A stretch of 40,627 bases of DNA, taken from the NCBI GenBank assembly GCA_023480665.1, contig JAMCWR010000018.1, forward strand, positions 1-40,627. Direction: 5' to 3'. Shown piece after piece: positions 8,580 to 33,595 of the stretch. Each line of letters starts with the position of its first letter. Position 1 is the first letter of the stretch. A program made the translations under genes and the position numbers. Source of the DNA: Gammaproteobacteria bacterium. GTDB lineage: Bacteria; Pseudomonadota; Gammaproteobacteria; UBA9339. The notes under the pieces are model-generated. The model ran no database searches, was not told the origin of the DNA, and saw only the letters and a list, made by a program, of their open reading frames with translations.

Positions 8580-9995
<1,416 letters not shown>

Positions 9996-10028
9996 AAACA
10001 ATTAAGAATGAAGAATGGCATTGTTGCA

Positions 10029-10312: not shown

Positions 10313-10362
10313 ATGCACCAATGTCATAAAGAATTAAGAATTTTGGCCGCAAGATAAAATTT

Positions 10363-10758: not shown

Positions 10759-10763
10759 ATTTT

Positions 10764-11048: not shown

Positions 11049-11051
11049 TTT

Positions 11052-11744: not shown

Positions 11745-11746
11745 TT

Positions 11747-12013: not shown

Positions 12014-12029
12014 AAAAACTGAGATTAAT

Positions 12030-16650: not shown

Positions 16651-17259
16651 ATGCAATATCATATAACACCATATGCTTCAGCAGTAAACAAGCTGCCTTT
16701 GGCCGCTCGGATAGTAATTTTGCTGCTATTGATGCTCGTAATCTATCTTGTCTGGTACTATACAATTTGGGCAAATTTACAATTAGCATCTGGACAAACT
16801 AATGCTGCAATCACTACTGTAAATTCTGACGTAGATATGTTGCAAAAACAGTTGGACCAATTAAAAGTGACTTTAAAATATAATAAAGAGCACCCAGTTA
16901 TTGCGCCAAAACATGAAATTTCTCCTGAACAAATACAACTAATTTCACCTGGTGATATGCGGCAACTATTGGGAAGCATCCTTACAAATAAACATAGGTT
17001 AGTGCTAATTAAATTTCAAAATCTGCCGATGCATGTAATCGAAGCGCCCCAATCAGGTAGTAAAATATTTGAATATAGAATTGTGTTACAGTTCCAAGGA
17101 GACTTTTTTGCCACCTATAAATATCTGCGTGAAATTGAAAACCTAAAATGGCGCTTATTTTGGGACAAATTTAATTACAAAGTGATCAAATATCCATTGG
17201 CAGAAGTCACTTTGCAAATTCATACCTTAAGTGATCAGGAGGTATGGTTAAATGCTTAA
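16651..17259 (+). CDS. mshJ: MSHA biogenesis protein MshJ (PilO-like)
   Basis: A 202-residue bitopic inner-membrane protein with one N-terminal helix (about 19-40), a coiled coil with VDMLQKQLDQLKVTL, and a periplasmic domain including RIVLQFQGDFFATYKYLREIENLKWRLF cut here as QFQGDFFATYKYLREIE and LKWRLFWD, the PilO/MshJ hallmark. It pairs with the PilN-like protein in the platform. It starts directly after the previous stop and overlaps mshK by 8 bp. Confidence 0.85.
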   Translation: MQYHITPYASAVNKLPLAARIVILLLLMLVIYLVWYYTIWANLQLASGQTNAAITTVNSDVDMLQKQLDQLKVTLKYNKEHPVIAPKHEISPEQIQLISPGDMRQLLGSILTNKHRLVLIKFQNLPMHVIEAPQSGSKIFEYRIVLQFQGDFFATYKYLREIENLKWRLFWDKFNYKVIKYPLAEVTLQIHTLSDQEVWLNA

Positions 17260-17605
17260 ACAACTCTTACCCCTTGCATTGTTTGCTATGATAATTTCGG
17301 TTCAGGCTGTTACGCCACCCAGTAATGCTAAACTACGAGATCCTACTGTGCCTTTTGGCACAACGTCTACAAGAGCCTTAGAAAACAATTTTCAAATTGA
17401 TGGAATTTTTATTGGCCCAAATAACCGTATTGTTTTAATTAATGGCCAACGCTTTTCTGTCGGTGACGTAATTATGGGGGCAAAAATAATTGCAATCAAT
17501 ACCCGTGAAATACGCTTGCAAGATGATACCGGGGAATATACAGTCTTAATGTCAAATGTTAGTGTAAAACACCCAACAACAAGTAAAGTTGAGAGAAACC
17601 CATGA
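17252..17605 (+). CDS. mshK: MSHA biogenesis protein MshK (PilP-like)
   Basis: A 117-residue protein with an N-terminal signal peptide (about 1-19, ending VQA). It has a short LRDPTVPFG linker typical of this family and a C-terminal beta domain: IDGIFIGPNNRIVLINGQ, then VGDVIMGAKI. In MSHA systems it links the MshJ platform to the secretin. A 4-bp ATGA overlap couples it to mshL. Confidence 0.82.
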   Translation: MLKQLLPLALFAMIISVQAVTPPSNAKLRDPTVPFGTTSTRALENNFQIDGIFIGPNNRIVLINGQRFSVGDVIMGAKIIAINTREIRLQDDTGEYTVLMSNVSVKHPTTSKVERNP

Positions 17606-19257
17606 GAGTATTAAAAACTTTTTGCATTGCAACAATTATATTTTTGCTAAATGCCTGCTCTGTAACGCATGAAGGAATAGATGCCGATCAAGAAATTAAA
17701 GACGCTCTTGGCGATAGCATGGCAATAAACCAGCATCAAGCAAGGAAAAATTCTCACTACGTCCCCAGATCAGTACGTAATGCATTGATGCCTTACCAAG
17801 ACCAGGTTGGGAAAGCTACTGGGCAAACAGCAACAGCTGAAGAACCAAAATTTGATATTTCAGTGAACAATGTTCCTGCAAAAGATTTTTTTATGGGGTT
17901 GGTTGATGGAACTAAATATAACATGACAGTCAGCCCACAAGTTTCAGGAAGTATTTCTCTAGAATTAAAAAATGTTACCATTCCTCAAGCTATGGAAGCA
18001 GCCCGCAATACTTATGGTTATGAATATGAAAAAACTTCATACGGATATCAAATTTCGCCAAAACGGTTACAAACGCGCATCTTTACCGTTAATTTTATAG
18101 ATCTCAGCCGTACTGGTAAAACTGCGACCAGCGTTGGTTCTGGCCAAATTACTGACGTAATTGGAACTAGTGGCTCCACCACTTCGACTGTTGCTACTAC
18201 TCCTTCAAGTGGTAGCATTGAAACAAATACAAAATCCAACATGTGGGATGCTTTAAAAACAAACTTAGAAGCTATTGTCGGCAAAGCGGAAGGACGCTCA
18301 GTAGTTATTAACTCTCAGTCAGGAGTTGTAATCGTAAAAGCCTACCCTGATGAATTACGTGGTGTGGCGCAATATCTAGATGATATCCAAGATGTTATGG
18401 GCCGACAGGTAATTCTTGAGGCAAAAATTCTTGAGGTCCAATTAAAAACTAGCTATCAAGCAGGCATTAACTGGAAAATTTTTGGCTTACAACAAGGTAG
18501 TGCAACACCTTTTACTACTGCATCATCAACGGATGTCCCTACATTTACTTCTGCATTTACTCTTAGCATAACTGATGGCAGCCCCTTTAATTCCATCATC
18601 CAATTGCTAAATACCCAAGGCAAAGTAAATGTTTTATCTAGCCCAAGAATTTCTACTTTAAATAATCAAACTGCTGTAATTAAGGTTGGTAATGACAGAT
18701 TTTTTGTCACTAACGTTACTAGCAACATTGCAGCTACAACAACTAACCCGATAACTTCTCAAAATATTACTCTAACTCCATTCTTTTCTGGTATTTCTCT
18801 CGATGTAACCCCACAAATAGATCAAGAAGGTGTAGTGACACTGCACATTCACCCAATCGTTAGCCAAGTAACTCAGGACACACAAAAATTTGTTGTCAAT
18901 GGCCAACCGCAGGATTTACCACTTGCTCAAAGTACAGTAAGAGAATCTGATAGCATTGTTAGCGCAAAAAATGGCCAAATAATTGTAATTGGTGGATTAA
19001 TGGAAAATGGCAGCACAGAAAGCCAAACATCTACCCCTGGATTTGATAGACTTCCTGATCTCAAAGGCTTATTCAAAAATACTAATAATCAAGCGCGTAA
19101 ATTTGAATTAATAATTTTATTAAGACCTATTGTTGTTGATGGAACTCGTACCTGGCAAAAACGCTTACAAGAAGCAGGAGATACTGTAAGGGAAATGCAA
19201 TGTGGAGAGTATCGTTATGAAATCGAAAGGAAAAAACAGGACCAACAGGACCCCTAG
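17602..19257 (+). CDS. mshL: MSHA secretin MshL
   Basis: Outer-membrane secretin through which the pilus exits, 551 residues. The N-terminus is a lipoprotein signal with lipobox LNAC (Cys19). An STN-like domain follows (about 80-150, with NVPAKDFFMGLVDGTKYNM), then an N domain with VVINSQSGVVIVKAYPDEL. The C-terminal secretin core (about 260-530) has VNVLSSPRISTLNNQTAVIKVG and VIGGLMENGSTE. A low-complexity Ser/Thr/Gly linker at about 170-215 is normal for the family. A ribosome-binding site, GAGAGAAACCC, lies within mshK. Confidence 0.93.
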   Translation: MRVLKTFCIATIIFLLNACSVTHEGIDADQEIKDALGDSMAINQHQARKNSHYVPRSVRNALMPYQDQVGKATGQTATAEEPKFDISVNNVPAKDFFMGLVDGTKYNMTVSPQVSGSISLELKNVTIPQAMEAARNTYGYEYEKTSYGYQISPKRLQTRIFTVNFIDLSRTGKTATSVGSGQITDVIGTSGSTTSTVATTPSSGSIETNTKSNMWDALKTNLEAIVGKAEGRSVVINSQSGVVIVKAYPDELRGVAQYLDDIQDVMGRQVILEAKILEVQLKTSYQAGINWKIFGLQQGSATPFTTASSTDVPTFTSAFTLSITDGSPFNSIIQLLNTQGKVNVLSSPRISTLNNQTAVIKVGNDRFFVTNVTSNIAATTTNPITSQNITLTPFFSGISLDVTPQIDQEGVVTLHIHPIVSQVTQDTQKFVVNGQPQDLPLAQSTVRESDSIVSAKNGQIIVIGGLMENGSTESQTSTPGFDRLPDLKGLFKNTNNQARKFELIILLRPIVVDGTRTWQKRLQEAGDTVREMQCGEYRYEIERKKQDQQDP

Positions 19258-19304
19258 TGTTTTGGCTTAAGATGTTTTAGAATAGATTTGGGAGTGTTTA
19301 ATCC

Positions 19305-20240
19305 ATGTACTTACAACATTTTGGATTTAATGAGTTTCCTTTTACTCTAACACCTAACTTACATTATTTTTGTGAATTGGATGCTTATCGAGAAGCATTA
19401 GATTTACTATTGGTTAGTTTGGCAAATGGTGAAGGATTCATAAAAATTACTGGCGAAGTTGGCACAGGGAAAACTTTACTCTGCCGCAAACTCTTAGATA
19501 ATTTGGGCGAAGAATACCTTACTGCTTACATCTCAAACCCAAATCTAGATTACTTTAACTTACAAAAAGCCATCGCAAAAGAACTGGAAATACCATTTGC
19601 AGAAACTACTGACCAATACGGGTTGTTAACAATTCTCAATGAACATTTAATCAAGTTTTGTCATGAAAAAAAACATGTAGTTATAATTATTGATGAAGCT
19701 CATATTCTATCTGACCAAGCGCTTGATGGCTTACGCTTACTCGGCAATCTTGAAACAGAATCTACTAAGTTAATCCAGATTGTTCTCGTTGGGCAACCAG
19801 AACTTGATAAACGCTTAAATAATACTAATATGCGCCAACTAAAACAGCGCATATCTTTTTCTTATAAATTACCCACATTATCTTCGAGCGAGTTAGATAT
19901 TTATTTGTATCACCGCTTAGCCAAAGCAGGTTATGAAAAACCGCATCATACTTTGTTTTCAAAAAAAGGTGTACGAATGATTTTAAAAGCAAGCCGCGGG
20001 GTTCCGCGCTTAGTAAATATACTTTGCCATAAAGCGCTGCTACTTTCTTATGGCCACAACAAAGACAAGGTCAATCCAGCCATGGTAAAAATGGCAATCC
20101 ATGACACAGAGAGCGTCGAAAAAACTCCTCGCGAACGAACTATTAACCTTGTGGAAACTATTGGCTTTATTTGTTTATTAGCTTTACTTGGGGTTGGAAG
20201 TTATTTCATTGGCAGTCAAATAGCATTAAGGTTTTTATAA
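19305..20240 (+). CDS. mshM: MSHA accessory ATPase MshM (ExeA-like)
   Basis: AAA+ ATPase, 311 residues, starting YLQHFGFNEFPFTLTPNLHYF as the family does. Walker A is GEVGTGKTLLCRKLL (about 49-63), Walker B is VVIIIDEAHILSDQALDGLRLL, and sensor/arginine segments include LKQRISFSYKLP. A C-terminal hydrophobic helix (about 284-306) suggests membrane anchoring. A GGAG ribosome-binding site precedes the start, after a 47-bp gap from mshL. ExeA-type proteins act on peptidoglycan and secretin placement. Confidence 0.9.
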   Translation: MYLQHFGFNEFPFTLTPNLHYFCELDAYREALDLLLVSLANGEGFIKITGEVGTGKTLLCRKLLDNLGEEYLTAYISNPNLDYFNLQKAIAKELEIPFAETTDQYGLLTILNEHLIKFCHEKKHVVIIIDEAHILSDQALDGLRLLGNLETESTKLIQIVLVGQPELDKRLNNTNMRQLKQRISFSYKLPTLSSSELDIYLYHRLAKAGYEKPHHTLFSKKGVRMILKASRGVPRLVNILCHKALLLSYGHNKDKVNPAMVKMAIHDTESVEKTPRERTINLVETIGFICLLALLGVGSYFIGSQIALRFL

Positions 20241-20241
20241 T

Positions 20242-21498
20242 ATGAGCCTAATCAATAAAATGCTAGCTGAGCTAGAAAAACATCGTAAAAAACTTAGTCC
20301 TGAGCAAAAAACTGTGCTTTCAGGCTTGGGCGTAAGCCAAAAAAAATATGCTGCTGCAACAAAACCATTAGCGCTAATTAAGCTACTTGTGGTTTTAGTA
20401 GTTTGCGCAGGTATTGTTTATTTTATTTTCCAGCATAAAACAACTTTAGAAAAATTTCTTCCCCATAAGCCACTACAAGCTGCAAATGAAACTAAACCTG
20501 TTACATCTACTCCTGCTCCACCCGTAACAATAAAAACTCCATCACTGCACAAAAATATTCCGCATCCTGCTATTAAACTAGAAAATTTAGCCATTACAAC
20601 CGAAAATGGTAAAACTATCCTCGATGCTTTTGTAAGCTCTCGCCCTTACTACTACATCGAGCGCAGCCCTGATATGCGTAAACTTACTATTAATTTAGGC
20701 AATACTGCAATACAGAATAATTACCCATTAAAACTTGATAATACGCCTATTCAAGCGATCAGTTACAAACAAAACAACATTAATGCCGAGCTCGTTATTG
20801 AACTAAAAACCAACGCGCAAATAGACACATTGCAATTTTATGACACTCCTCCGTTACGGCTAGAATTAGTACTTTCAACTCAAGAGCCCGTGCAACAAAA
20901 AATAACAAAAATAGCCATACCGGAATCTCCGGAACATCAAGCTCAGGTACAATATAATTATGCTATACAATTAATTGAGCAAAATCGTACGCAAGCAGCG
21001 ATAACACAGCTCCAACAACTACTGTTAGATTTTTCTAATCATGTTCAAGCAAGACAACTTCTAGTTGATCTGTTAGTAAAAAATGGCAAACAGCAAAAAG
21101 CTCTTGATATATTAAATACCGGGTTAAAAAAATCTCCAGGCTATGTTCCATTTGTAAAATCCAAAGCACGGATTTTAATTAACTTGGGGAAAAATTATCA
21201 GGCATTGCGAGTTTTGCAAAGTATCGTGCCAGACAACATCGTTGATGATCCTGAATATTACTCTTTGCTGGCAACAATTTATCACGACCAAGGTAAATAT
21301 ATTGCTGCAGCGCAAATTTATTATCAATTAACCAATGTTCAACCAGATAAATCCGCATGGTGGATTGGCTTAGGCATCTCCTTAGAAGCTGCCAATAAAA
21401 ACAATGCTGCTATTGATGCTTATCAACAAGCAATGCAAAGTGGAGATTTAACACCTGAGCTTCGCGCCTTTTTGGCAACAAAAATTAAACAATCCTAA
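20242..21498 (+). CDS. mshN: MSHA biogenesis protein MshN (TPR)
   Basis: A 418-residue bitopic protein. The N-terminus MSLINKMLAELEKHRKKL is a short cytoplasmic segment typical of MshN. It is followed by one membrane helix (about 45-63) and a Pro-rich linker. A domain with FVSSRPYYYIERSPDMRKL comes next, then about four TPR-like repeats from residue 230 to the end (YNYAIQLIEQNRTQAAITQL and similar). It probably organises assembly proteins in the periplasm. It starts one base after mshM. Confidence 0.85.
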   Translation: MSLINKMLAELEKHRKKLSPEQKTVLSGLGVSQKKYAAATKPLALIKLLVVLVVCAGIVYFIFQHKTTLEKFLPHKPLQAANETKPVTSTPAPPVTIKTPSLHKNIPHPAIKLENLAITTENGKTILDAFVSSRPYYYIERSPDMRKLTINLGNTAIQNNYPLKLDNTPIQAISYKQNNINAELVIELKTNAQIDTLQFYDTPPLRLELVLSTQEPVQQKITKIAIPESPEHQAQVQYNYAIQLIEQNRTQAAITQLQQLLLDFSNHVQARQLLVDLLVKNGKQQKALDILNTGLKKSPGYVPFVKSKARILINLGKNYQALRVLQSIVPDNIVDDPEYYSLLATIYHDQGKYIAAAQIYYQLTNVQPDKSAWWIGLGISLEAANKNNAAIDAYQQAMQSGDLTPELRAFLATKIKQS

Positions 21499-21507
21499 GG
21501 TAAAATT

Positions 21508-23202
21508 ATGGAACAGCCACGACGCATAGGAGATTTGCTAGTAAGTAGCAACCTTATCAAGGAAGAAGAATTAGAAAAAGCGTTAACCAAACAAAAAGAT
21601 TTAGGAAGAAAAATTGGTGATCTTTTGATTGAGGCAGGAGTGATTGATGAAAAAACTTTTTTAGAGACTCTATCACAACAAATTAACGTACCCTATATTG
21701 ATCTCCCCCACTATCAGCTAGATGAAAATGTAGCGCGCAAACTACCGGAAGCTTTTGCACGACGTTTTAAAGCTATTGTTCTTAGCGAAGAAAAAACTGG
21801 CGAATTATTGGTTGGTATGGTTGACCCACAAGATATTTTTTCTACTGATGAATTATATCGTCAATTACAAAAACCGTTAAAATTTGCTCTGGTTAGTGAA
21901 AAAAATTTAAATCAAACTCTGGATAGGGTCTATCGCCGCGCTGGAGAAATTAAAACTTTAGCTGTAACTCTTGCCTCTGAATTAAAACAGATCACCAAAG
22001 CGCCAGAAAGTGACCGACTAATGAAGCAAGCAGAACCAGCGGTCTTAAAGCTTATCAATTCATTATTTGAAGATGCAGTTCAAGTTAATGCTTCCGATAT
22101 TCATATTGAACCAGCTGGTGATAAAATCCGCGTACGCCTACGTGTTGATGGTTTTCTACAAGAACAGATCATCCCTCTTACTGATGATCATATTTCTCTT
22201 GCTTTAAACCAGCGTTTAAAATTAATGTCTGGATTGAATATTGCCGAAAAACGCTTACCTCAAGACGGACGTTTTGATATTGTAGTACGAGATATTGCAA
22301 TTGATGTGCGTTTATCGACCATGCCTAACCAATATGGTGAAAGCATTGTCATGCGCTTGTTGCGCAAATCATCTAAAGCCTTAAACCTTGATCAAACTGG
22401 CATGCCAAAAGAAATCTTGGAACCATTTCGCCAATTCATTAGATTGCCACATGGAATAGTTTTAGTAACCGGTCCAACTGGTAGTGGAAAAACTACTACT
22501 CTTTATGGAGCTCTTACTGAAATAAATGATGTATCACAAAATATCATTACAATTGAAGACCCTATTGAATATCGTTTAGAAAGAGCCAATCAAGTTCAAG
22601 TAAATGCACAACTTGGCTTGAGTTTTGCAAGAATTCTCCGCGCTGCGCTACGCCAAGATCCAAATATTATCTTAGTTGGTGAAATCCGTGATCAAGAAAC
22701 TGCATCGATAGCACTACGAGCTGCTCTAACTGGACATTTGGTTTTCGCTACTTTGCACACTAATGACGCAGCAAGTACGGCGTTACGTTTAATCGATATT
22801 GGAGTTGAAGGTTATTTAGTTGCGGCAACGCTTCGAGTAATTTTAGCACAACGTTTGGTACGCTCCATTTGCCCTTACTGCAGTAAACAATATAAACCCA
22901 ACGAACTTGAACAAGCTTTTTTTCTCTCTTTCTTTGGCGACGCCATAAACCAAAGCACTTTCCACAAAGGCGAAGGCTGTAGTTACTGCAATAAAACAGG
23001 CTTTAAAGGCCGCACCGGAGTTTTTGAGATATTGGCTCTAGATAACGAATCAAGAGATGCTCTACGGCGTAATAGTTCGGAAGAATTTAACAAAGTTGTG
23101 GGGCGGAATAGAAAAACACCAACTCTGCTTGCGAATGCTTTTGCCCTAGCACAACAGGGTGTAACCACTTTAAGTGAAGTGTTGCGAGTAGCAGGGGAAT
23201 AA
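21508..23202 (+). CDS. mshE: MSHA pilus extension ATPase MshE
   Basis: The PilB-type hexameric motor, 564 residues. The N-terminus carries two MshEN repeats, RIGDLLVSSNLIKEEELEKA-LTKQ (6-29) and KIGDLLIEAGVIDEKTFLET-LSQQ (35-58). They fit the R/K-x-G-x-x-L...L-x-x-x-L-x-x-Q c-di-GMP-binding pattern, with Lys in place of Arg in the second. Walker A is GPTGSGKTTTL (322-332), with an Asp box IEDPIEYRL and Walker B ILVGEIRDQETA. A zinc tetracysteine CPYC...CSYC precedes the C-terminus. Activation by c-di-GMP is therefore predicted. Confidence 0.95.
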   Translation: MEQPRRIGDLLVSSNLIKEEELEKALTKQKDLGRKIGDLLIEAGVIDEKTFLETLSQQINVPYIDLPHYQLDENVARKLPEAFARRFKAIVLSEEKTGELLVGMVDPQDIFSTDELYRQLQKPLKFALVSEKNLNQTLDRVYRRAGEIKTLAVTLASELKQITKAPESDRLMKQAEPAVLKLINSLFEDAVQVNASDIHIEPAGDKIRVRLRVDGFLQEQIIPLTDDHISLALNQRLKLMSGLNIAEKRLPQDGRFDIVVRDIAIDVRLSTMPNQYGESIVMRLLRKSSKALNLDQTGMPKEILEPFRQFIRLPHGIVLVTGPTGSGKTTTLYGALTEINDVSQNIITIEDPIEYRLERANQVQVNAQLGLSFARILRAALRQDPNIILVGEIRDQETASIALRAALTGHLVFATLHTNDAASTALRLIDIGVEGYLVAATLRVILAQRLVRSICPYCSKQYKPNELEQAFFLSFFGDAINQSTFHKGEGCSYCNKTGFKGRTGVFEILALDNESRDALRRNSSEEFNKVVGRNRKTPTLLANAFALAQQGVTTLSEVLRVAGE

Positions 23203-23206
23203 TAAA

Positions 23207-24433
23207 ATGCCGATGTTTCAATATCAAGGCCGTGATCCAAGCGGTGCCCCTATCAAGAAAATCTTGAAAGCCAGCTCAGTTGACGAAGTCGTAATGTACC
23301 TCGAAAAACGTAACATTACGCCAATTAAAATTGATGAAATCGAGCTTGGCACCGATGCAACCGCTACTATTGAAAATTTTCTTGGTATAAATAACATTAC
23401 AACTGAAGAAATCATGAACTTCTGCCGGCAGTTAAGCACTCTCATTGCAGCTGGCGTACCTATTATCAAAGCATTAAATCAATTAGCCCAATCAACAACC
23501 TCACATCGTTTTTCTCAGGCTTTGTCCAATATTGCAGATAGTGTTGCCGCTGGCCAAACATTTTCTGATGCATTAGCCAAATATCCAGCAATTTTTTCTA
23601 CAATTGTAACAAATCTGATCGAGGTTGGTGAAAACACTGGTCATCTAAACGAAACTCTGATGCAAATTAGCATGTACCTAGAAAAGTACTTAGCTAACCG
23701 CCGCCGCTTAATTTCAACTGCACGTTACCCAATAATGGTTTTTTTTGGCACATTAGTTGCTATGGTGGTTATGAATATGTTCGTCATACCAAAATTTACC
23801 ATGATATTTAGCCGCTTCCATTTAGAACTACCACTTGCCACTAGAGTAATAATTGACATATCGAATTTCATGCTTAATCACTGGCTAGCTTTACTTATTG
23901 CAGCATTATCAATTATTTTTGGTGTCCCACGTCTTATGTCCATTTTTCCAATTTTACGCTATTATTGGGATAAATATAAATTGCGCATTCCAGTTACTGG
24001 TAACATTCAAAAACGCATCATTATTTCGCAGTTTTGTTGGACATTTGCGCTGATTCTACGCTCAGGAATTCCAGTGGTACAAGGTATTCAGCTTGCAGGC
24101 AATTCCACTGGTAATGCATATTTTACGAAACAAATTAACAAAATGAAAGAAGGGATAGAACATGGCCAAAGTTTTTCTCAAGGCGCCATGAATACCGATC
24201 TATTTTTCCCCACCATTATTCAAATGATTGAAGTCGGGGAAGAAACTGGACGCTTAGATGAAATTTTAACTGAAGTATCACAGTTCTATGATGGTGAGAT
24301 CGAATTTGATATCAGACGCTTAAATGAACTCCTTGAACCAGTTTTGCTGTGTATGGTTGGTAGCGTAATTTTAGTAATGGCTATTGGAATATACTTCCCA
24401 ATGTGGGATCTAATTAAGATCGCACAATTCTAA
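23207..24433 (+). CDS. mshG: MSHA platform protein MshG (PilC/GspF-like)
   Basis: Polytopic inner-membrane platform protein, 408 residues. Two GspF domains each show the family pattern FCRQLSTLIAAGVPIIKALNQL (about 68) and FCWTFALILRSGIPVVQGIQLA (about 272), abbreviated here as RQLSTLIAAGVPI and WTFALILRSGIPVV, and VGEETGRLDEIL. Three membrane helices lie at about 170, 220 and 380. It is the last gene of this operon; mshF and mshB, often found next, are missing. It is convergent with the minor-pilin operon across a palindrome. Confidence 0.93.
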   Translation: MPMFQYQGRDPSGAPIKKILKASSVDEVVMYLEKRNITPIKIDEIELGTDATATIENFLGINNITTEEIMNFCRQLSTLIAAGVPIIKALNQLAQSTTSHRFSQALSNIADSVAAGQTFSDALAKYPAIFSTIVTNLIEVGENTGHLNETLMQISMYLEKYLANRRRLISTARYPIMVFFGTLVAMVVMNMFVIPKFTMIFSRFHLELPLATRVIIDISNFMLNHWLALLIAALSIIFGVPRLMSIFPILRYYWDKYKLRIPVTGNIQKRIIISQFCWTFALILRSGIPVVQGIQLAGNSTGNAYFTKQINKMKEGIEHGQSFSQGAMNTDLFFPTIIQMIEVGEETGRLDEILTEVSQFYDGEIEFDIRRLNELLEPVLLCMVGSVILVMAIGIYFPMWDLIKIAQF

Positions 24434-24562: not shown

Positions 24563-26293
24563 CTACGGTGTATATGGACCAACCAAATTGTTTACGGTCG
24601 CGTTTGCGCCTGTTGCATTACCTAACCAAACCGCTTCATAATCTGGCCCAAAAGGTGGGTTTTGTGGACCAGTAGCACTTTGCCACGTGGCTCCATTCCA
24701 AAATGAAAGTATCGCTCCTTCTGCAGATATTGAAGCATAAGATGAGGAAACAACATTAATGTTTTCACCTCCATTTATACCATGCCCACTAGCATCAGAC
24801 CAATTTCCATTCTGATAGCGCTCAATAAAGGTGGGGTAACCAATAACCCATCCATCAACTACTTGGTTAGTTTCATTAGTTAATAATCCCATATTCCCAT
24901 ATTCAATTACACTAGTACCAAAATTATGATATATAGAAGAGGTAATTCTTGTTGCTTTCCATCTGCCAGACTGAGCGCTAGGAGTAATTTCAAATACATA
25001 ATTACCATTGATCCAAATCTTAGTATCTGAAATAACTTTTACAGCAGTTAAAGGCGCATAAGATCTTAAACTAGATAATGGCGAATCCCATCCCCACCTT
25101 ATATTAGACCAAGTATTCCCAGAATTAGTAGTTACTAATACATTGCCATAATCATCTACTGCCATGCCCATAGTTCCATCACTACTCATAGATACACCAA
25201 GCAAATTAGCCCTATAAGTGTTTGAAGGACGACTTGGCTTTGAAAGTGTACAACTTGTATCAGTGCAGACAATTTTAACAATATTATAACTATAATCAGG
25301 GTTATACAAACCAACGGCAAAGGAAACACGAGAATTGCCAACGGTTGTAACAGATGCTAAATCACCAGTATTAGATAAGCTAAAATAGTGCCAAGTTTCT
25401 GATCCAGAAGCAGGAGTTCCTCGCGGACTAAACCCCCATAAATTTAAATTTGAATACCAAATACGCCCTCCATCACCGCACACCCAACCATAAACTCCAT
25501 TGTCAGATCTAGTTATGCTGTATATACCTACACCAGTTACTCCAGAATTTTCACTTGCAGCTTGCCAATTACCGGTGGAATATTTATAAGCGAGGAATGG
25601 AATACTTGATGAGTTAGCATTATCACCAACCATTTCTATGGTTCCATTGCCAAGCAACGCGCTATCCATAACACTCACGCCTTCGGTTCGCCTGCCAAGC
25701 AAGGCAGCGACGCCTGGCAAGTTCGGCACACGACCAACGGCACTGATTGAGCACTGTTCTTGTTTCGCCACACTCGAGGTAGTATGGGTTGTAGAAGTTG
25801 TTCCCGCTTGAGCACGTATCACATTTTTTAAAGTATTGCCACTAATACCATTATAATCAAAAGCCTCACCATCAATTAGCACTCTCCCACTTGGAGCATA
25901 ACCAGTAACATTAGCTAATTGAATCTGAGTTATTGAAACATTTGCATCAATAGAAGCAGTCAAGTTCGCTGCAGTTGGAAAATAATAATTTGTACTAAGA
26001 TCAAATGCACCATCAGCAAAAGTTACATTATTAACGGGTAAAGCGTCGCAACATTGCTCTCCGGTCATACTACTTGTACAGGGGTTAATCCGTTTAACAT
26101 ATTGATATATTGCTCGATCCACACCAGACTCAGCGATATAAAAAGATTTTTTCGCATCGATATAAGCTATTTTTGCATCAGTACTTCTAACATACATATA
26201 AGCTAAGGCAGCACTCATTAGCGAAACAATTACAATAATCATGATAGCAACAACCGCAAGAAATCCCCGCTGCGATTTAATATTGTTGGTCAT
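24563..26293 (-). CDS. MshP/PilX-like minor pilin fused to a beta-propeller-like domain
   Basis: A 576-residue pilin-like protein. I start at MTNNIKSQRGF (26293): its ATG overlaps the upstream TGA (ATGA) and AAGGAG lies just before it. Residues 9-32 are a PilX/MshP-type helix (RGFLAVVAIMIIVIVSLMSA) and YIAESGVDRA follows as in PilX proteins. From about residue 190 the protein has BNR/Ycf48-like repeats (WVCGDGGRIWYSN, AVDDYGNVLVTTNSGNTW, WVIGYPTFIERYQNGNWSDA). It has a Cys-rich patch (QCCDA) and about ten N-X-S/T sequons. It probably sits at the pilus tip; the ligand is unknown. It occupies the mshP/mshQ position but is not a standard MshQ. Confidence 0.8.
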   Translation of the reverse strand: MTNNIKSQRGFLAVVAIMIIVIVSLMSAALAYMYVRSTDAKIAYIDAKKSFYIAESGVDRAIYQYVKRINPCTSSMTGEQCCDALPVNNVTFADGAFDLSTNYYFPTAANLTASIDANVSITQIQLANVTGYAPSGRVLIDGEAFDYNGISGNTLKNVIRAQAGTTSTTHTTSSVAKQEQCSISAVGRVPNLPGVAALLGRRTEGVSVMDSALLGNGTIEMVGDNANSSSIPFLAYKYSTGNWQAASENSGVTGVGIYSITRSDNGVYGWVCGDGGRIWYSNLNLWGFSPRGTPASGSETWHYFSLSNTGDLASVTTVGNSRVSFAVGLYNPDYSYNIVKIVCTDTSCTLSKPSRPSNTYRANLLGVSMSSDGTMGMAVDDYGNVLVTTNSGNTWSNIRWGWDSPLSSLRSYAPLTAVKVISDTKIWINGNYVFEITPSAQSGRWKATRITSSIYHNFGTSVIEYGNMGLLTNETNQVVDGWVIGYPTFIERYQNGNWSDASGHGINGGENINVVSSSYASISAEGAILSFWNGATWQSATGPQNPPFGPDYEAVWLGNATGANATVNNLVGPYTP

Positions 26294-26769
26294 TGTAATC
26301 TCCTTGGACACACAATAGTTTGAAGCGGCAACACACCATGACTTGATTCTCCCGGCGGCATAGTAACATTAGCAAAAATATAAATACACATAACTTGGCT
26401 CATATTACTTGTGTAATTAAAGCTACTATCAACATAATTAAAATTTAAATTATTAATGTAGTTAGCAACGCTAGTTCCATTACGCAATATAGAACCACCT
26501 GAAAGTGTATAACTATCAGTACTACCATTTACATCAGTAAAATTAATCATTGACGTGCTAGAAGTATTACTAAAACTAGATAGAAACAGCAGATCATTAG
26601 CAATGCGCTGTAGCGCCAAACGAGCATGCCAGCTTCTTTCCACAATATTGGTGCTAACTGCACCAGCAAGCAATCCTTTATCTAACCAAGCAGCCGCAAC
26701 TCCAGCAACTATTCCTAAAATTAAAATAGCAATAATAAATTCGATTAAAGTTAGTCCTTTGGCACGCAT
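26290..26769 (-). CDS. MshO-like minor pilin
   Basis: A 159-residue type IV pilin-like protein. I start at MRAKGLTLIEF (26769), because an upstream in-frame ATG would bury the prepilin leader. The leader is cut after Gly4, with Leu instead of Phe at +1 and Glu at +5 (G-LTLIEF). Residues 60-75 (ALQRIANDLLFLS) resemble MshO/PilW. It has seven N-X-S/T sequons in 159 residues. It follows the MshD-like gene by 11 bp and overlaps the propeller gene by 4 bp. Confidence 0.78.
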   Translation of the reverse strand: MRAKGLTLIEFIIAILILGIVAGVAAAWLDKGLLAGAVSTNIVERSWHARLALQRIANDLLFLSSFSNTSSTSMINFTDVNGSTDSYTLSGGSILRNGTSVANYINNLNFNYVDSSFNYTSNMSQVMCIYIFANVTMPPGESSHGVLPLQTIVCPRRLQ

Positions 26770-26780
26770 TTGAACCCTAT

Positions 26781-27248
26781 TTAAGTATGATTGGTAACTC
26801 CACGAGTTAAATTTACAAGCTGATAACCATTCTTCGTATAATAAACATATACGTGAACAAGTCGGCAATCTGTAGTTGGATTAAACACTGCGCTACCGTT
26901 AAAATTAATATACTGGCTTTCATTACTGCAAGTATTTTCAATAGTAACATTCAAATAATAACCAGGAATTTTTGAGGTATTACACACATTAATATTACTA
27001 GGACATAAATCTACGAGCTGGCTTAAATTGGCAGGAGATAAGCGAATAGCTGGGTTATTAACAATAATCTCCATACGTTGTTGTGCTAGCTCTAACGCTT
27101 GGGTGCCTTCATCGATGTAATGTGTCCCCACTAATGGAGTGGTAAAACTTGCTACTATAGAAAAGGTTATGCCAAGGACCACCACAAAAATAAGTAACTC
27201 AATTAAAGTAAACCCTTCAAACTTAGACTTCTTGCGAATATTTCTCAT
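26781..27248 (-). CDS. MshD/PilV-like minor pilin
   Basis: A 155-residue prepilin with leader MRNIRKKSKFEG, cut before FTLIELLIFVVVLG, and Glu at +5. The stretch EGTQALELAQQRMEIIVNNP matches the MshD/PilV pattern after the helix. It has four cysteines in the distal half. Seven N-X-S/T sequons lie in the last 85 residues, plus one N-T-C. It overlaps the upstream mshC-like gene by 4 bp (ATGA). Assignment to MshD rests on position and on the helix-proximal motif. Confidence 0.78.
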   Translation of the reverse strand: MRNIRKKSKFEGFTLIELLIFVVVLGITFSIVASFTTPLVGTHYIDEGTQALELAQQRMEIIVNNPAIRLSPANLSQLVDLCPSNINVCNTSKIPGYYLNVTIENTCSNESQYINFNGSAVFNPTTDCRLVHVYVYYTKNGYQLVNLTRGVTNHT

Positions 27249-27754
27249 GGCACACTAACTCCCCCAGCTTGATTTACTCGAACAACTTTTGTAACTAGCG
27301 GACCACTTACACATAAAGTAATATCAAAATTACTGGTAAGACTTGAAAAAACTCCAGAGCTATTTGCTGTATATGGCAACCCATTAACATCAAACATAAC
27401 ATAGCAAGTGCCAGAACCATAACTACCACAACCACACATGCTAATTCCGGTTGGATAGATAATATTGTCAGAAGCAATGGTAAAATTAGTTATGTCGCTA
27501 GAATAATAAATTTGATACCCAATGGCTGTTAAAGTAATCCGCAATTGCGTAGCACGAGACATAGCATATTGCTCAGTAGCACGAATATAATTAGCAAGCT
27601 GATTTGCCTCATAAGCAGCATTAATCGTTCCACCAGGCCAGCGAAAAAGCAAATAAAAGATAGTGACAGCAATAATAGCAAAAACAACTATCAGTTCTAC
27701 CAAACTGAATCCTTTGCATTTTGATTTTCTACTCGCATCTCTACAAACGGTCAT
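27245..27754 (-). CDS. MshC/GspH-like minor pilin
   Basis: A 169-residue prepilin with a basic leader ending KCKG, cut before FSLVELIVVFAIIAV. FRWPGGTINAAYEANQLANYIR after the helix is typical of MshC/GspH-type pilins; the FRWP motif can be read directly as LLFRWPGG. It has several cysteines (CGCG and two more) and only two sequons. It overlaps the pilT end by 14 bp, so it is translationally coupled to the motor gene. Confidence 0.8.
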   Translation of the reverse strand: MTVCRDASRKSKCKGFSLVELIVVFAIIAVTIFYLLFRWPGGTINAAYEANQLANYIRATEQYAMSRATQLRITLTAIGYQIYYSSDITNFTIASDNIIYPTGISMCGCGSYGSGTCYVMFDVNGLPYTANSSGVFSSLTSNFDITLCVSGPLVTKVVRVNQAGGVSVP

Positions 27755-28775
27755 ACATTAAATCTCTGTAGAGTTCAGGATCAATTAATTTTTTAGCAAC
27801 TAAATCTTGCAAATTTTGTGACAAAGTTTGCATACCTTTTTCTTGCCCAGTTTGAATTGCAGAATAAAGCTGTTGAATTTTGTTTTCACGGATCATATTA
27901 CTAATGGCTGGAGTACAAACCATAACTTCTTGTGCTGCCATACGCCCACCGCCAATCTTGCGTACTAAAACTTGGCAAATAACTGCACGTAAAGAATTGG
28001 CTAACATGCCTCGAATTAAAGATTTTTCATGCGTTGGGAAAACATCAACAATACGATCAATACTTTCAGCAGCAGAATTAGTATGTAAGGTAGCAAATAC
28101 CAAATGTCCTGTTTCGGCAGCAGTTAAGGCTAACCTAACTGTCTCAAGATCTCTCATTTCACCTACTAAAATATAATCTGGGTCCTCACGCAATGCCGCA
28201 CGCAAAGCATCATCAAAAGAAGCAGTATGTTTCCCCACTTCGCGCTGTTGAATTAAACATTTTTTACACTCATGCAAATATTCAACTGGATCTTCAATGG
28301 TTAAAATATGTGAATTCTGTGAATTGTTAATGTGATCAATCAATGCTGCAAGCGTTGTGCTTTTACCAGAACCGGTAACTCCAGTTATTAATATCAAGCC
28401 ATTTTGAATGTCACAAAGTTTATAATAGATTTTTGGCAAGCCTAATTCAGCGATAGATGGAATGCGAACTGGAATAGAACGAAAAGCAGCACTAATACCG
28501 CGAAACTGATGAAACACATTAACACGAAAACGGCTGGCAAGCCCAAAAACACTAATTGCCAAATCCAAATCCATTTTTGAACCTAACTGGGCAGATACTT
28601 CAGGTGGCAACACTGAATACAGCATCTCCCTAATTGTCACTTCGTCCAAAGCAACCGAATTTGGTACTTGGCGTAACTCATCATCAATGCGTACTAGTGG
28701 CGCCACGCCACAAGACAAATGCAAATCCGATGCATTTTGTGCGACAGTATAAGTTAATAGCTCCATGATATCCAT
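27741..28775 (-). CDS. pilT: PilT-type pilus retraction ATPase
   Basis: A 344-residue hexameric motor for pilus retraction. It contains SDLHLSCG near residue 16, Walker A GVTGSGKSTTLAAL (about 128-141), the Asp box IEDPVEYLH, Walker B ILVGEMRDLETV, the His box TGHLVFATLHTNSA, and the PilT signature AISNMIREN (family AIRNLIRE). It is shorter at the N-terminus than MshE and lacks the tetracysteine, as PilT does. It heads a five-gene operon with four minor pilins. A retraction motor at the head of an msh minor-pilin operon is not the usual arrangement. Confidence 0.93.
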   Translation of the reverse strand: MDIMELLTYTVAQNASDLHLSCGVAPLVRIDDELRQVPNSVALDEVTIREMLYSVLPPEVSAQLGSKMDLDLAISVFGLASRFRVNVFHQFRGISAAFRSIPVRIPSIAELGLPKIYYKLCDIQNGLILITGVTGSGKSTTLAALIDHINNSQNSHILTIEDPVEYLHECKKCLIQQREVGKHTASFDDALRAALREDPDYILVGEMRDLETVRLALTAAETGHLVFATLHTNSAAESIDRIVDVFPTHEKSLIRGMLANSLRAVICQVLVRKIGGGRMAAQEVMVCTPAISNMIRENKIQQLYSAIQTGQEKGMQTLSQNLQDLVAKKLIDPELYRDLMYDRL

Positions 28776-28864: not shown

Positions 28865-29079
28865 TGTAGGGGCGGGTTTGTCCTTGAACATTCGTGATGT
28901 TTATAGAAACTAATTGTGTTTAATAATCGCGATACAATTAATGCCATCTGAAACCCGCCCGCGAAGTGCCACAAATCAGTATGGGCGGGTTTCTGATGGC
29001 ATTATTAACATCGAGGAATATCAAACCCATTTGGTTTCCATAAAAGCCGTACTAATTCATGCACAAACCCGCCCCTACG
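28865..29079. repeat. Full palindromic MITE-like element between pilT and the major pilins
   Basis: About 215 bp, bounded by TGTAGGGGCGGGTTTGTC and GCACAAACCCGCCCCTAC. Central inverted arms are CATCTGAAACCCGCCCG and ATGGGCGGGTTTCTGATG. The left half shares ATGTTTATAGAA-CTA with the copy at 33621; the right half is diverged from the other copies. It fills most of the 369-bp gap between the divergent pilT and pilin genes, so promoters of both lie in the short flanks. Confidence 0.85.
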
Positions 29080-29144
29080 ATACACTGTACGAAAAATTTT
29101 ATGTGTACAGAGATATTTTAATTAAAAAAGTTTCTGGAGCGAGT

Positions 29145-29600
29145 ATGAAAAAGGAATATAGCTTCTCTTTGTTAGAAATGCTCATCGTGATAGTAATAAT
29201 TGGTTTTCTAATAAGATATGCCCTACCTAAATTTGAAAATCTAGAACGTTCAGCCCGTGTTGTATCTGTTATGGGAACTGCTAACAGTTTTCGCTCTATA
29301 GCTGCGTTAGTACATGGCCTTTGTCTGAGCAACCTACAACTTTGCCAAGAAGGAAATATAACTATTGAAAATAGTAGCGTCGCAGTTGATAGTCAAAATT
29401 TTTATCCATTAGCAACAACTAGTGGTGTTATTGCAGCCATTGCTAACGCTGCTGAAAACAGCACAATTTATGATAAGGAAGGTAATATTTCTATTGCTAT
29501 TAATTTGCTTACTCATGGTGCTGCATGTAATGCTACTTATAAATATGCTAACGCAACTATGGTTACTCCAACCGTTATAGTTAGCCTTGGAGAGTGTTAA
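29145..29600 (+). CDS. MshA-like pilin paralogue with non-canonical processing site
   Basis: A 151-residue pilin. I start at MKKEYSFSLLEM (29145), after a GGAG site; longer in-frame starts run back into the repeat. The residue before the expected cleavage is Ser6, not the Gly required by most prepilin peptidases; Phe7 and Glu11 (+1, +5) are kept. Arg24 lies within the hydrophobic helix where its neighbour has Ala. The rest parallels the next pilin: VHGLCLSN, a Cys pair, NISIAINLLTHGAACNATY and a C-terminal Cys. It has six N-X-S/T sequons (N71, N76, N105, N114, N129, N136); N71 and N114 also have Glu at -2. It may be a minor or poorly processed form. Confidence 0.85.
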   Translation: MKKEYSFSLLEMLIVIVIIGFLIRYALPKFENLERSARVVSVMGTANSFRSIAALVHGLCLSNLQLCQEGNITIENSSVAVDSQNFYPLATTSGVIAAIANAAENSTIYDKEGNISIAINLLTHGAACNATYKYANATMVTPTVIVSLGEC

Positions 29601-29681: not shown

Positions 29682-30143
29682 ATGAAAAAAGAAAAGGGCT
29701 TTACGTTGATCGAGTTGGTCATCGTAATTATCATTCTAGGTATTTTAGCTGCATACGCCATACCAAAATTCATCAATTTGGAAAAAGCAGCACGTATTGC
29801 TACTGTCCAAGGGATTTCTGGCACTTTCCGATCAACTGCTGCCATGGTCCATGGAGTCTGTATGAGCAATATATCACAGTGCACAGGTGGTAACGTAACT
29901 GTAGAAGGTGTAAACGTTGCTGTTGACACCACTAACTACTACCCACTTGCTACACAGTCTGGAATTATTAATGCTTTAGCTAATATTACTGGTGGCACCA
30001 CAGTTTATGATACCAATGGTAACATTTCTATTGCTATTAACTTGCTTACCCAAGGTTCTGCATGTAATTCCACTTATGCATATAATGGATCAATAGCAGC
30101 ATCTCAATCGCCAATTGTTTATAGCTACATTGGTGGATGTTAA
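29682..30143 (+). CDS. mshA: Major MSHA-type pilin
   Basis: A 153-residue type IVa pilin with leader MKKEKG, cut before FTLIELVIVIIILG, and Glu at +5, fully canonical. AAYAIPKFINLEKAAR follows, with the Pro22 kink. Distal cysteines (C60, C67, C128, C153) suggest two disulfides. Six sequons are at N63, N71, N101, N114, N129 and N135; N71, N114 and N129 coincide with those of the upstream paralogue. None has an acidic residue at -2. A strong AAGGAG site and an efficient terminator fit a highly expressed major subunit. The gene symbol rests on context and on similarity to MSHA pilins. Confidence 0.88.
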   Translation: MKKEKGFTLIELVIVIIILGILAAYAIPKFINLEKAARIATVQGISGTFRSTAAMVHGVCMSNISQCTGGNVTVEGVNVAVDTTNYYPLATQSGIINALANITGGTTVYDTNGNISIAINLLTQGSACNSTYAYNGSIAASQSPIVYSYIGGC

Positions 30144-30213: not shown

Positions 30214-32790
30214 ATGAATCAAGATCAACTGCAAACCAAATTTTCAATCATTCCCGATAGTAATCTACGCCACGGAATTATGCTGTTTATACTAGCTGTG
30301 GTGATGTTTGCGATAAGAACAATTCCACTTCATGCGCTTATTTTTACTTCTTGGCCTGGCCCAGATGGCAATTACGTAAATTTTGCAGCTGATGACGCTG
30401 TATATCATATGCGATTAATACATAACACTTTACACCACTTACCAATACGAATTTTTTATGATCCTTTCACCTATTTCCCTTATGGCAGTATAAATCATTT
30501 TGGACCATTATTTACTTTAATCATCGCATACTCTGCACTGCTTATTGGCTTAGGTCACCCAAGTGCAGAATTAGTAAATCATGTAGCAGCTTATATCCCG
30601 CCAATTATGGGAGCTTTATGTATTCTTCCAACTTACTTTATTAGCAGAAAACTTTTTGGTAAACCGTGCGGAATTTTATCTGCATTTGTGTTAACTATTT
30701 TACCAAGTGAATTTTTATCGCGCTCAACTTTAGGTTATGTAGATCACCACATCGCAGAAACCTTATTTTCAGCTATAACCTGCGCACTCTTTATTTATGC
30801 ATTAAGCAATACCCAAGCTACCGAGCAAAAAAAACTAAATCTATTTCCGATATTAGCTGGCTTGGCATACGGCTTATATTTGCTCTGTTGGAAAAATGCC
30901 GTTTATTTTGGCTTCATTTTTCTTATTTTTTTTATTATTCAGCTCACCATTAATCATTTGCGGCAAATTTCTAATCTGCCACTTAAAAAAATTGCTCTGC
31001 CATTTTTCACGCTTCCAGCCTTGATGGTTTTGCCTTACGCGCTAGCTAATCTTTCGCTCAAACAGCTAGATTATTCATTAACAATACCAACAATTTTGTT
31101 AGCTATGCTTCTTATCGTTTACCTATGCTATTACCTAGAGAGCATCCTAAATCGCAACCATATCAACAAAAAAATATTTCCTCTGCTATTGATCTTACTA
31201 GTACTTGCTACAGTAATTATAGTTAAACTTTTTATCCCACAGCTCTATGAAGTTGTTTTCCAAAATTTTAAGTCACTACTTGATCCCTTTGCTCCGATGA
31301 AAACAGTGAGTGAGCTAAGATCCGCTTATACTTACGATCCAGTCACAGGAAAAATATCATTTCAACTTTTGTGGCTACAGTTTTTTTGGGCACTGCCACT
31401 AGCAATCTGCGCTTTAATCTTGCTGGTTTATAGAATTATTAAATATCATCAAAGCTACGAGATATTCTTTTTCATTTGGAGTGTGGGTATTTTTATCGCT
31501 ACACTTTCAGAGTTACGTTTTTCTTATTACTTGGCTGTGAATATAGCAATTTTAGCTGGTTACTTTGTCTATGCGACACTCGAATTTCTAGCGACGCTTA
31601 ATCCCAAAATACCGCTACTACAATCAGCGCAAAAAATTAGCGTTACCGTACTAACAATAGTAGTTATGTCAGCACTCTTTTTCCCTATGTTATCTCTGTT
31701 ACTTTTTAGAGGAATACCATCAGGTGCGCATATTACTGAGGACTGGTATAACACTTTAATCTGGCTTCGAACTCACACTCCTGACCCACAAGGTAAACCT
31801 ATTCAGAAAAATTTTGACTATGCGGCAGGAATCTACCATATCCCCAAAATTACTCATACTAAATTTAGTTATCCCTCAAGCGCCTACGGCATAATGTCAT
31901 GGTGGGATTATGGACATCAAATCACCTACATTGCCCATCGCATACCTAATGCTAGCCCATTTCAAGATGGTATTGTTGAACCTGATAGAATTTCCGGTGC
32001 TGCACCATTTTTTACTGCTACGAATGAAACATCAGCGATTCACAATTTAAATAATATGGGATCACGCTATGTTTTAATTGATCTAAGAATGCCAACCTCA
32101 ATTTTTGGAGCTATTGCAACTTGGAATAATGACGCTTATGGTTGGCGCATAGCAAAAACTATAACCGCGAATAACCACAAGCCATCAAAAAGAATGGTTT
32201 ATGTCGACGCACCAAAATTTGAAAATTCGGTAATAAACCGACTTTTCTATCATGATGGTAATGGGTTGCATTATTTCCGGCTTATTTACGAATCAGACGG
32301 TAACTATACAGTCACTGGCAAAGGACTTAATCTACAAAGTAACCAAGAATTTAGCCTATCAGCAACATTTAAAAACTATGCCCAAGCTATAACTTATCTT
32401 AACCATCTCAAGCAAAGACCTTTTCTTGATAAGGCGAAAAATCTTTTGCTATTTGAAACACGAGCTCCAGAAAAGAACGCCAAAATCTTTGAAAAAGTCA
32501 GAGGCGCAACCATATCTGGCCGTGCAGCAGATGGCAGTAACATAAGTTTATCTCTACAATTAGAGACTAAATATGGACGAAAGTTTATTTATGCAGAAAC
32601 TGTAATCGCTAAAAATGGGCACTATAATTTTATCGTCCCCTATCCGACGGAAAAAATGTATGGCGATGGTTATGAGTATGATATAATGCCTATAACTAAA
32701 TACAGCTTAAATACTGGCAATAAAGTTATCGAGGTATCTGTGCCAGAAAAAGCTGTTATGCAAGGATCAGTGATTAATATCGAGGAATAA
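30214..32790 (+). CDS. STT3/PglB/AglB-type oligosaccharyltransferase
   Basis: An 858-residue membrane enzyme that transfers a lipid-linked glycan to Asn in N-X-S/T. The first external loop has the metal-binding segment AADDAVYHMRL (D60/D61). GYVDHHIAETL gives the second motif (D177, H178, H179). TVSE (364-367) matches the external-loop-5 TIxE/SVSE motif that recognises the acceptor. The catalytic WWDYG is at 563-567 within SYPSSAYGIMSWWDYGHQ. About 11-13 membrane helices occupy residues 1-510. NLNNMGSRYVLIDLRM after WWDYG resembles archaeal AglB. It lies 70 bp after the major pilin and 7 bp before the DUF155 gene. No glycan-assembly genes are in the window. Confidence 0.93.
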   Translation: MNQDQLQTKFSIIPDSNLRHGIMLFILAVVMFAIRTIPLHALIFTSWPGPDGNYVNFAADDAVYHMRLIHNTLHHLPIRIFYDPFTYFPYGSINHFGPLFTLIIAYSALLIGLGHPSAELVNHVAAYIPPIMGALCILPTYFISRKLFGKPCGILSAFVLTILPSEFLSRSTLGYVDHHIAETLFSAITCALFIYALSNTQATEQKKLNLFPILAGLAYGLYLLCWKNAVYFGFIFLIFFIIQLTINHLRQISNLPLKKIALPFFTLPALMVLPYALANLSLKQLDYSLTIPTILLAMLLIVYLCYYLESILNRNHINKKIFPLLLILLVLATVIIVKLFIPQLYEVVFQNFKSLLDPFAPMKTVSELRSAYTYDPVTGKISFQLLWLQFFWALPLAICALILLVYRIIKYHQSYEIFFFIWSVGIFIATLSELRFSYYLAVNIAILAGYFVYATLEFLATLNPKIPLLQSAQKISVTVLTIVVMSALFFPMLSLLLFRGIPSGAHITEDWYNTLIWLRTHTPDPQGKPIQKNFDYAAGIYHIPKITHTKFSYPSSAYGIMSWWDYGHQITYIAHRIPNASPFQDGIVEPDRISGAAPFFTATNETSAIHNLNNMGSRYVLIDLRMPTSIFGAIATWNNDAYGWRIAKTITANNHKPSKRMVYVDAPKFENSVINRLFYHDGNGLHYFRLIYESDGNYTVTGKGLNLQSNQEFSLSATFKNYAQAITYLNHLKQRPFLDKAKNLLLFETRAPEKNAKIFEKVRGATISGRAADGSNISLSLQLETKYGRKFIYAETVIAKNGHYNFIVPYPTEKMYGDGYEYDIMPITKYSLNTGNKVIEVSVPEKAVMQGSVINIEE

Positions 32791-32797
32791 ATAACTT

Positions 32798-33595
32798 ATG
32801 CGTTGTGTTGCCATATGCCCTACCGAAAGTTATAAGTTAACCGCACTAAGCAATTTTTTTCGTAATCAAGGCTACCTGGTCAAACAATTTCGTAAAGTTT
32901 TACATCTGTCTCACCCTAAAAAATCCGGTGACATTTTTATTTTCTCTTATGGTTGCCTCGTGACCTGGGGATTGAAAAAATTTGAAGAAAATAAACTACT
33001 CAAACAATTAGAACCATTTTCTATTAACCTATTACCGCAAATAGAAATGGCAACGGCTATCTTTCGTTATGATAATTATACCGAAATGGCATTCCACGAA
33101 AGATTTAACGTTGATGTCATCGTTTTAGAATCAGACAGCATGCAGCTAAAGCTAGCACTTTCTTATGGGCTTGCCCAATCCATTCAGTTAGAATCCTACG
33201 AGTCCGCGATTCAAAAAACTATCGAATCAAACGCACACTTCCCTGAACAATTAGCAAAACAAGGGAAAATTGATTTGCCGCAGCGGGAGATTTCCAAACG
33301 TATGGGGCAAATTTTTTTAGCACGTAGTTATATAAATTTAAACAGTGAGTATTTAGCCGAGCCAGAATTTTTTTGGGAGCATCCTGCCTTAGTAGATTAT
33401 TATAACATGAGCGAAAAGTTTCTAGATATTCCGCGCCGCGTCTCTGCTCTTAATCAAAAGCTCGATGTCTTAAACGAATTATTTCAGATGCTCAATGGAC
33501 AATTGCAGCATCGTCATTCCAACATGTTGGAAATGACAATTATTATTTTAATTTTAATCGAAATTTTTATTAGTTTAATAACCATGTGGCATTGA
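32798..33595 (+). CDS. DUF155 / RMD1-RMND1 family protein
   Basis: A 265-residue protein. DIFIFSYGCLVTWGL near residue 45, then EFFWEHPALVDYYNMSEKFL, IPRRVSALNQKLDVLNELFQ, and LQHRHSNMLEMTIIILILIE with a C-terminal membrane helix (about 243-262) are the core of DUF155. Eukaryotic members (RMD1, RMND1) are organellar proteins linked to mitochondrial translation; bacterial members have no settled role. It starts 7 bp after the oligosaccharyltransferase and is probably co-transcribed, but I see no functional link. The downstream flank is a MITE-like repeat. Confidence 0.85.
   Translation: MRCVAICPTESYKLTALSNFFRNQGYLVKQFRKVLHLSHPKKSGDIFIFSYGCLVTWGLKKFEENKLLKQLEPFSINLLPQIEMATAIFRYDNYTEMAFHERFNVDVIVLESDSMQLKLALSYGLAQSIQLESYESAIQKTIESNAHFPEQLAKQGKIDLPQREISKRMGQIFLARSYINLNSEYLAEPEFFWEHPALVDYYNMSEKFLDIPRRVSALNQKLDVLNELFQMLNGQLQHRHSNMLEMTIIILILIEIFISLITMWH

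Follow-up and report, generated by a model that had tools for sequence, protein, structure and literature searches.

Judged by its sequence family, predicted fold and position in trees, the open reading frame at 30214-32790 of the window analysed here (40.6 kb, the entire contig C38 of a 1.9-Mb gammaproteobacterial MAG, G000) is a complete archaeal-type oligosaccharyltransferase of the AglB-long class, and the available sequences indicate that it is the product of lateral transfer from a Methanocella-like archaeon into one gammaproteobacterial family. We consider it probable that this STT3 protein is a functional N-oligosaccharyltransferase (N-OST) that N-glycosylates the pilins encoded beside it, using an undecaprenyl-linked glycan. 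No 16S gene was found in the MAG, and similarity of DnaB and bL9 supports its placement at class level only. The contig carries lepA, rnc, dnaB, the genes for ribosomal proteins S6 and bL9, alr, and an MSHA-like pilus locus in which the following features are found.

15134..24433, + strand: MSHA-like pilus assembly genes (PilM-like, PilN, MshL-like secretin, AAA, TPR, MshE-type ATPase, PilC/T2SSF)
24563..26311, - strand: large pilus-locus protein with a hydrophobic N-terminal segment; 10 sequons vs 9.1 expected, no excess
26290..26868, - strand: minor pilin with 7 N-X-S/T (3.1 expected, p=0.011)
26781..27248, - strand: minor pilin with 7 N-X-S/T (2.2 expected, p=0.0017)
27245..27754, - strand: minor pilin without sequon excess (2 vs 1.8 expected)
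27741..28775, - strand: PilT/T2SSE-type ATPase (PF00437), by synteny a conserved flank of the pilin-STT3 unit
29145..29600, + strand: pilin 1, major, 151 aa, 6 N-X-S/T (PF07963)
29682..30143, + strand: pilin 2, major, 153 aa, 6 N-X-S/T (PF07963)
30214..32790, + strand: AglB-long type STT3 oligosaccharyltransferase, 858 aa, ATG start (TIGR04154, Pfam, 3waj, AF2 model)
32798..33595, + strand: DUF155 (RMND1/Sif2) protein, 7 bases after STT3 (PF02582, 158 bits; linkage kept)

The MshL-like secretin scores 249.7 bits, just below the cut-off of 250.2. Pilin 1 lies in an open reading frame of 28914-29600 and probably begins at 29145 (MKKEYSFSLLEM...), with Ser, not Gly, preceding the cleavage site. 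Elsewhere in the window, an ATP synthase cluster (8601-15034) encodes an alpha subunit with good scores to models of ordinary as well as alternate F1F0 ATPases and has a Host_attach/baeRF family 12 protein beside it (8011-8445), and at 39501-40469 a ThiI/tRNA methyltransferase-type HUP domain is fused to an NFACT-R RNA-binding domain.

A sequence-only reading of this DNA had already proposed that the STT3 protein resembles archaeal AglB more than Campylobacter PglB. The frame is as described there, with every quoted motif at the residues given, and the proposed affinity is borne out at several levels. Residues 22-851 score 655 bits with the NCBIfam model TIGR04154 (archaeo_STT3), for which the cut-off is 450, and Pfam recognizes the STT3 GT-C membrane domain (PF02516, 98.7 bits), the AglB core (PF22627, 81.4 bits) and AglB_L1 (PF18079, 77.2 bits). 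Among solved structures, that of Archaeoglobus fulgidus AglB-L (3waj) is the closest in sequence, with a match over the full length (E=1.7e-93); no PglB appears in the PDB sequence matches up to E=0.01. An AlphaFold2 (AF2) model (pLDDT 81, pTM 0.84), with Foldseek matches to AglB, STT3 and PglB, superimposes on Archaeoglobus AglB 7e9s with a TM score of 0.81 at 27% identity, vs 0.46 and 14% for Campylobacter PglB 5ogl. A PglB-like bacterial lineage is ruled out by these TM scores and the PDB sequence matches. A GT-C protein that is not an oligosaccharyltransferase, which would have refuted the earlier proposal, is excluded by the AglB core, the fold and the WWDYG motif. The catalytic motifs are located as follows.

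30391..30414, + strand: first acidic motif and metal site, D60 D61 ... YHMR 64-67 (sequence and alignment)
30742..30750, + strand: second acidic motif, DHH 177-179, with D177 and H179 invariant
31303..31314, + strand: TVSE 364-367 (TIXE/SVSE motif), with T364 and E367 invariant
31900..31914, + strand: WWDYG 563-567, Ser/Thr pocket, invariant
32101..32103, + strand: Ile630, at the alignment position of Archaeoglobus AglB-L Lys618 (variant DK motif)

Invariance refers to an alignment of 32 sequences, the window STT3 and 31 archaeal ones, in which D61 is likewise invariant. The stretch GSRYVLID starts at residue 616, and the DK/MI pocket segment reads DLRMPTSIFGAI. The assignment of Ile630 to the Lys position of the variant DK motif, as defined in PMC3703281, comes from alignment only, without pocket geometry. 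By the same alignment, the relatives G004 and G007-G009 also have Ile at this position, and most copies from Methanocella have Lys. This Ile corresponds to the residue of the PglB type, but the Lys is missing from several archaeal sequences too, so convergence on PglB is not claimed.

In the trees that were calculated, the STT3 proteins of the family form one clade (100/100) that is sister to Methanocella AglB (100/100), and trees of the N- and C-terminal parts agree with that of the full protein. The phylogeny suggested as a check in the sequence-only reading has thereby been obtained in part: the grouping with archaeal AglB is clear, and PglB and eukaryotic STT3 are not included in the tree. 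The direction of transfer, from archaeon to bacterium, is inferred from the distribution of the protein and from rooting on Archaeoglobi. Since the clade of the family branches beside Methanocella and not within it, the donor is best called Methanocella-like. Four genomes from the order to which Methanocella PtaU1.Bin125 belongs have this AglB type, at 41-49% identity (41-45% in the three further genomes), and on L011 its neighbours are archaeal glycosyltransferases.

Old vertical inheritance in the Gammaproteobacteria or Pseudomonadota, for which we see hardly any room, could appeal to the presence of STT3 in 6 of the 11 genomes of the family (the own genome counted), as a result of which the gene must be old within the family. 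However, only one genome outside the family, G309, gave a match over the cut-off among 369 sampled genomes of the same class, and that protein sits on a distinct long branch; there was no strong match except in the own genome among 398 sampled Pseudomonadota genomes, and Methanocella AglB is the sister group of the family clade. This sparse distribution in the genomes sampled rules out vertical inheritance from gammaproteobacterial ancestors, which would have contradicted the earlier reading, and the lateral transfer that had there been called possible is well supported by it and by the Methanocella sister clade. The STT3 of G309, a member of a different gammaproteobacterial family, is a lone AglB-type protein with an intact WWDYG in a 757-aa frame beside a glycosyltransferase cluster (contig C5, L119:10142-12415), and perhaps represents an independent transfer. 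The AglB proteins on two contigs titled Ratteibacteria and Tenericutes (L082, L083) group with the Methanoperedens type, and these contigs were treated as probably misbinned archaeal ones.

A contamination estimate of 7.8% for the MAG raises the question of whether an archaeal contig was misassembled or binned into a bacterial genome, but practically nothing speaks for this in the case of the window. The STT3 gene lies inside 40.6 kb of bacterial DNA with the housekeeping and pilus genes mentioned above, its G+C content matches (36.6% vs 37.5%), the gene is found at this position in four further MAGs of the family, and the orthologues, at 46-48% identity, form a separate clade of their own; the contig content and the synteny together rule contamination out. 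In G004, G007, G008 and G009, STT3 is located directly 3' of a pilin gene. DUF155 comes next after STT3 in G004, G007 and G008, with no DUF155 frame called at that place in G009, and kbl follows in G004, G008 and G009. In G003, the gene directly ahead of STT3 encodes not a pilin but a TIG-domain surface protein. No STT3 was found in G002, where the locus is otherwise the same (ATPase - pilin - DUF155 - kbl - tdh) and where the pilin has zero sequons. The fixed place in relatives, together with the G002 locus that is without STT3, shows STT3 to be a module that was gained or lost at a fixed position. DUF155 itself is tightly linked to pilin and STT3 genes across the family and is also kept where STT3 is missing. 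Behind DUF155, G002 has a multi-spanning protein of 565 aa without a Pfam match and a GT2 glycosyltransferase (C157, L230:6433-9047), an arrangement that looks as if the locus exchanges glycosylation modules.

The pilins of the window are observed to be rich in potential acceptor sites. Expected sequon numbers were obtained by shuffling, with the mirror pattern S/T-X-N as a second control. The two major pilins together have 12 N-X-S/T sites vs 4.4 expected and 3 mirror sites (permutation p=2e-4), and the five window pilins have 28 vs 11.5 expected and 10 mirror sites (p<1e-4; binomial vs mirror p=0.0025), with an excess in four separate pilins. Since the sequence-only reading had singled out the major pilins, the two sequon-rich minor pilins provide a fresher test. 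An Asp or Glu at position -2 is present at 2 of the 12 major-pilin sites, so that the earlier count of 10 sites without one is correct, and at 3 of the 28 sites over five pilins, although the true acceptor sites have not been established. For the relaxed acceptor rule that had been expected from this count, the sequon statistics give indirect support only, and there is no direct evidence. No enrichment was detected in the rest of the sampled secretome, outside the pilins and one TIG adhesin (115 vs 117), which indicates that the enrichment in pilins is not an effect of genome composition. The major pilins of G004, G007, G008 and G009 have 5 sequons vs 6.3 expected.

Pfam scans of the larger open reading frames in the window found no glycosyltransferase, flippase or polyprenyl-phosphate gene, in agreement with the earlier reading, in which it was concluded that the glycan donor must be made elsewhere. 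Candidate genes for a lipid-linked glycan pathway, the absence of which would have told against a glycosylating enzyme, are indeed present in the genome. Contig C28 encodes a PglC-like transferase (231 bits to PglC 8g1n, a diNAcBac-1-phosphate transferase, and 120 to WbaP), a PglF-like dehydratase (299 bits to 5bju WlaL, which is C. jejuni PglF), a PglE-like aminotransferase and a NeuD/PglD-type acetyltransferase. Contig C32 has an initiating sugar-phosphate transferase, glycosyltransferases and a Wzx-like membrane protein, the latter judged from sequence without a Pfam match, and NeuB-type and Polysacc_synt_2 genes are located on C47 and C9. In G007, pglC-D-E-F-like genes are contiguous (C33). 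With PglC/D/E/F-like genes in the genome, a bacillosamine-type undecaprenyl-linked donor is plausible. The C28 genes are, however, unlinked to STT3 and nothing ties them to it, and the candidates could serve O-antigen, capsule or O-glycosylation instead. A search with PF02397 found no PglC-type genes in G004, G008, G003 and G009, so the donor may differ between members of the family. The survey consisted of searches and sampled stretches of the genome, and the set may be incomplete.

In the explanation that we favour, the STT3 gene was built into the MSHA-like pilus locus, where it immediately follows the pilin genes, and a glycan would be made in the cytoplasm on undecaprenyl phosphate by the products of bacterial genes at other places in the genome and then flipped. 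The inner-membrane STT3 would then bind the lipid-linked glycan and, on the periplasmic side, a pilin loop that contains N-X-S/T, and transfer the glycan en bloc to the Asn, without a need for an acidic residue at -2. The major pilins and two minor pilins would be the targets, and the glycosylated pilins would be assembled by the MSHA-like machine. Catalytic activity with transfer to Asn is inferred, and so are the identity of the glycan, its carrier, the donor pathway that feeds the enzyme and the role of the pilins as substrate. Points against this explanation are the absence of any experiment, the unlinked donor genes, the replacement of the pocket Lys by Ile, and the archaeal carrier: in euryarchaea for which it is known (Methanococcus, Haloferax), AglB uses dolichol phosphate, not undecaprenyl diphosphate (PMC5131992).

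Since relatives keep STT3 beside pilins that have no sequon excess, linkage alone is no proof that pilins are the substrate. It is conceivable, even if unlikely, that STT3 is an active N-OST acting mainly on other surface proteins such as TIG-domain adhesins, with the pilin sequons being incidental. A TIG-repeat surface protein of 1422 aa encoded by the same genome (C34, L133:2947-7215) has 51 sequons vs 23 expected, and STT3 lies directly behind such a gene in G003. However, the repeats in the C34 protein may inflate the count, the TIG repeats may share N-x-T by common descent, a related adhesin on C3 has no excess (20 sequons vs 25 mirror sites) and the partial TIG protein of G003 is not enriched, whereas STT3 is linked to pilins in other members and the excess extends over four separate pilins. 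Still less probable is that STT3 no longer makes N-glycoproteins and is drifting to, for example, hydrolysis of lipid-linked oligosaccharides or a different acceptor motif. The sequences that could suggest this are those at the WWDYG position, which read WWDMG in G004, WWDVG in G003, WWEIG in G007-G009 and WGSNG in a second copy on contig C17 of the own genome, in view of the loss of activity that C. jejuni PglB shows when WWDYG is altered, for example by Y460N or G461D (PMC3527161); the Lys to Ile change in the pocket and the relatives' pilins without sequon excess point the same way. The window copy retains WWDYG and all catalytic acids and is accompanied by sequon-rich pilins, so that drift is a better description of the relatives and the C17 paralogue than of the window enzyme. 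That paralogue (L091:2657-5227, - strand) is an AglB-type STT3 of 856 aa, 38% identical, amid purine-catabolism-like genes, and because of the 7.8% contamination of the MAG it could belong to a contaminant.

Where sequence is available, the relatives and the C17 copy all retain the acidic, DHH and Glu motifs, and in G004, G007, G008 and G009 second-position differences (0.16-0.21) are far below those at saturated fourfold sites (0.65-0.68), which means that the STT3 proteins of the relatives are still constrained. A tentative suggestion, which may well fail, is that the acceptor pocket changed after the transfer, at WWDYG and at the Lys position, with the relatives glycosylating another motif while the lineage of the window retained N-X-S/T and came to have sequon-dense pilins. 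If true, this would amount to a naturally occurring set of N-OSTs that differ in sequon specificity. What connects motif and sequon excess is a correlation with few independent points, one genome with an intact motif and four altered ones that share ancestry.

Bacterial lipid-linked N-glycosylation has been placed in delta- and epsilon-proteobacteria (PMC4973528), and both N-OSTs and archaeal-to-bacterial transfer are already known. No report of an archaeal-type oligosaccharyltransferase or AglB in Gammaproteobacteria was found in the literature searched, most subscription journals being outside its scope. What is described here seems to be another such transfer, in which the donor lineage can be identified (Methanocella), the recipients are Gammaproteobacteria and the gene has a defined place in a pilus locus, and the G002 locus without STT3 and the relatives with a drifted acceptor motif provide a comparison set. 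It offers a testable case of a bacterium adopting an archaeal protein-modification enzyme, with its substrates responding. If an AglB works on undecaprenyl-linked glycans without the acidic -2 rule, it would also be a useful tool for glycoengineering.

Among known systems, archaeal AglB-long (3waj/7e9s, Methanocella AglB) is closest, as it shares the full-length sequence similarity, the fold, the AglB core and AglB_L1, the acidic and TIXE-type motifs and WWDYG, and archaeal AglBs also modify pilins and archaellins (PMC5131992). Unlike these enzymes, the window STT3 occurs in a gammaproteobacterium, in an MSHA-type pilus locus, with Ile for the pocket Lys, and is expected to use the bacterial undecaprenyl carrier instead of dolichol phosphate. 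With bacterial PglB of the Campylobacter and Desulfovibrio type it has in common that it is an N-OST in a bacterium, with PglC/D/E/F-like genes elsewhere in the genome and Ile at the second pocket position. It differs from PglB in the low structural and sequence similarity (TM 0.46, 14%), in having Methanocella AglB as sister (in a tree without PglB), in the 10 of 12 major-pilin sites that lack an acidic -2 residue, and in the lack of a surrounding pgl cluster. The association with type IV pilins resembles O-linked pilin glycosylation by PglL/PilO and TfpO. These belong to a different enzyme family and form an O-linkage, and no gene of the PglL/PilO/TfpO type was found in the window. The locus itself is like that of the MSHA-type (mannose-sensitive haemagglutinin) pilus with respect to the MshL-like secretin, the MshE-type ATPase, PilC, PilM/PilN and the minor pilins, but differs from it in the oligosaccharyltransferase gene that immediately follows those of the major pilins.
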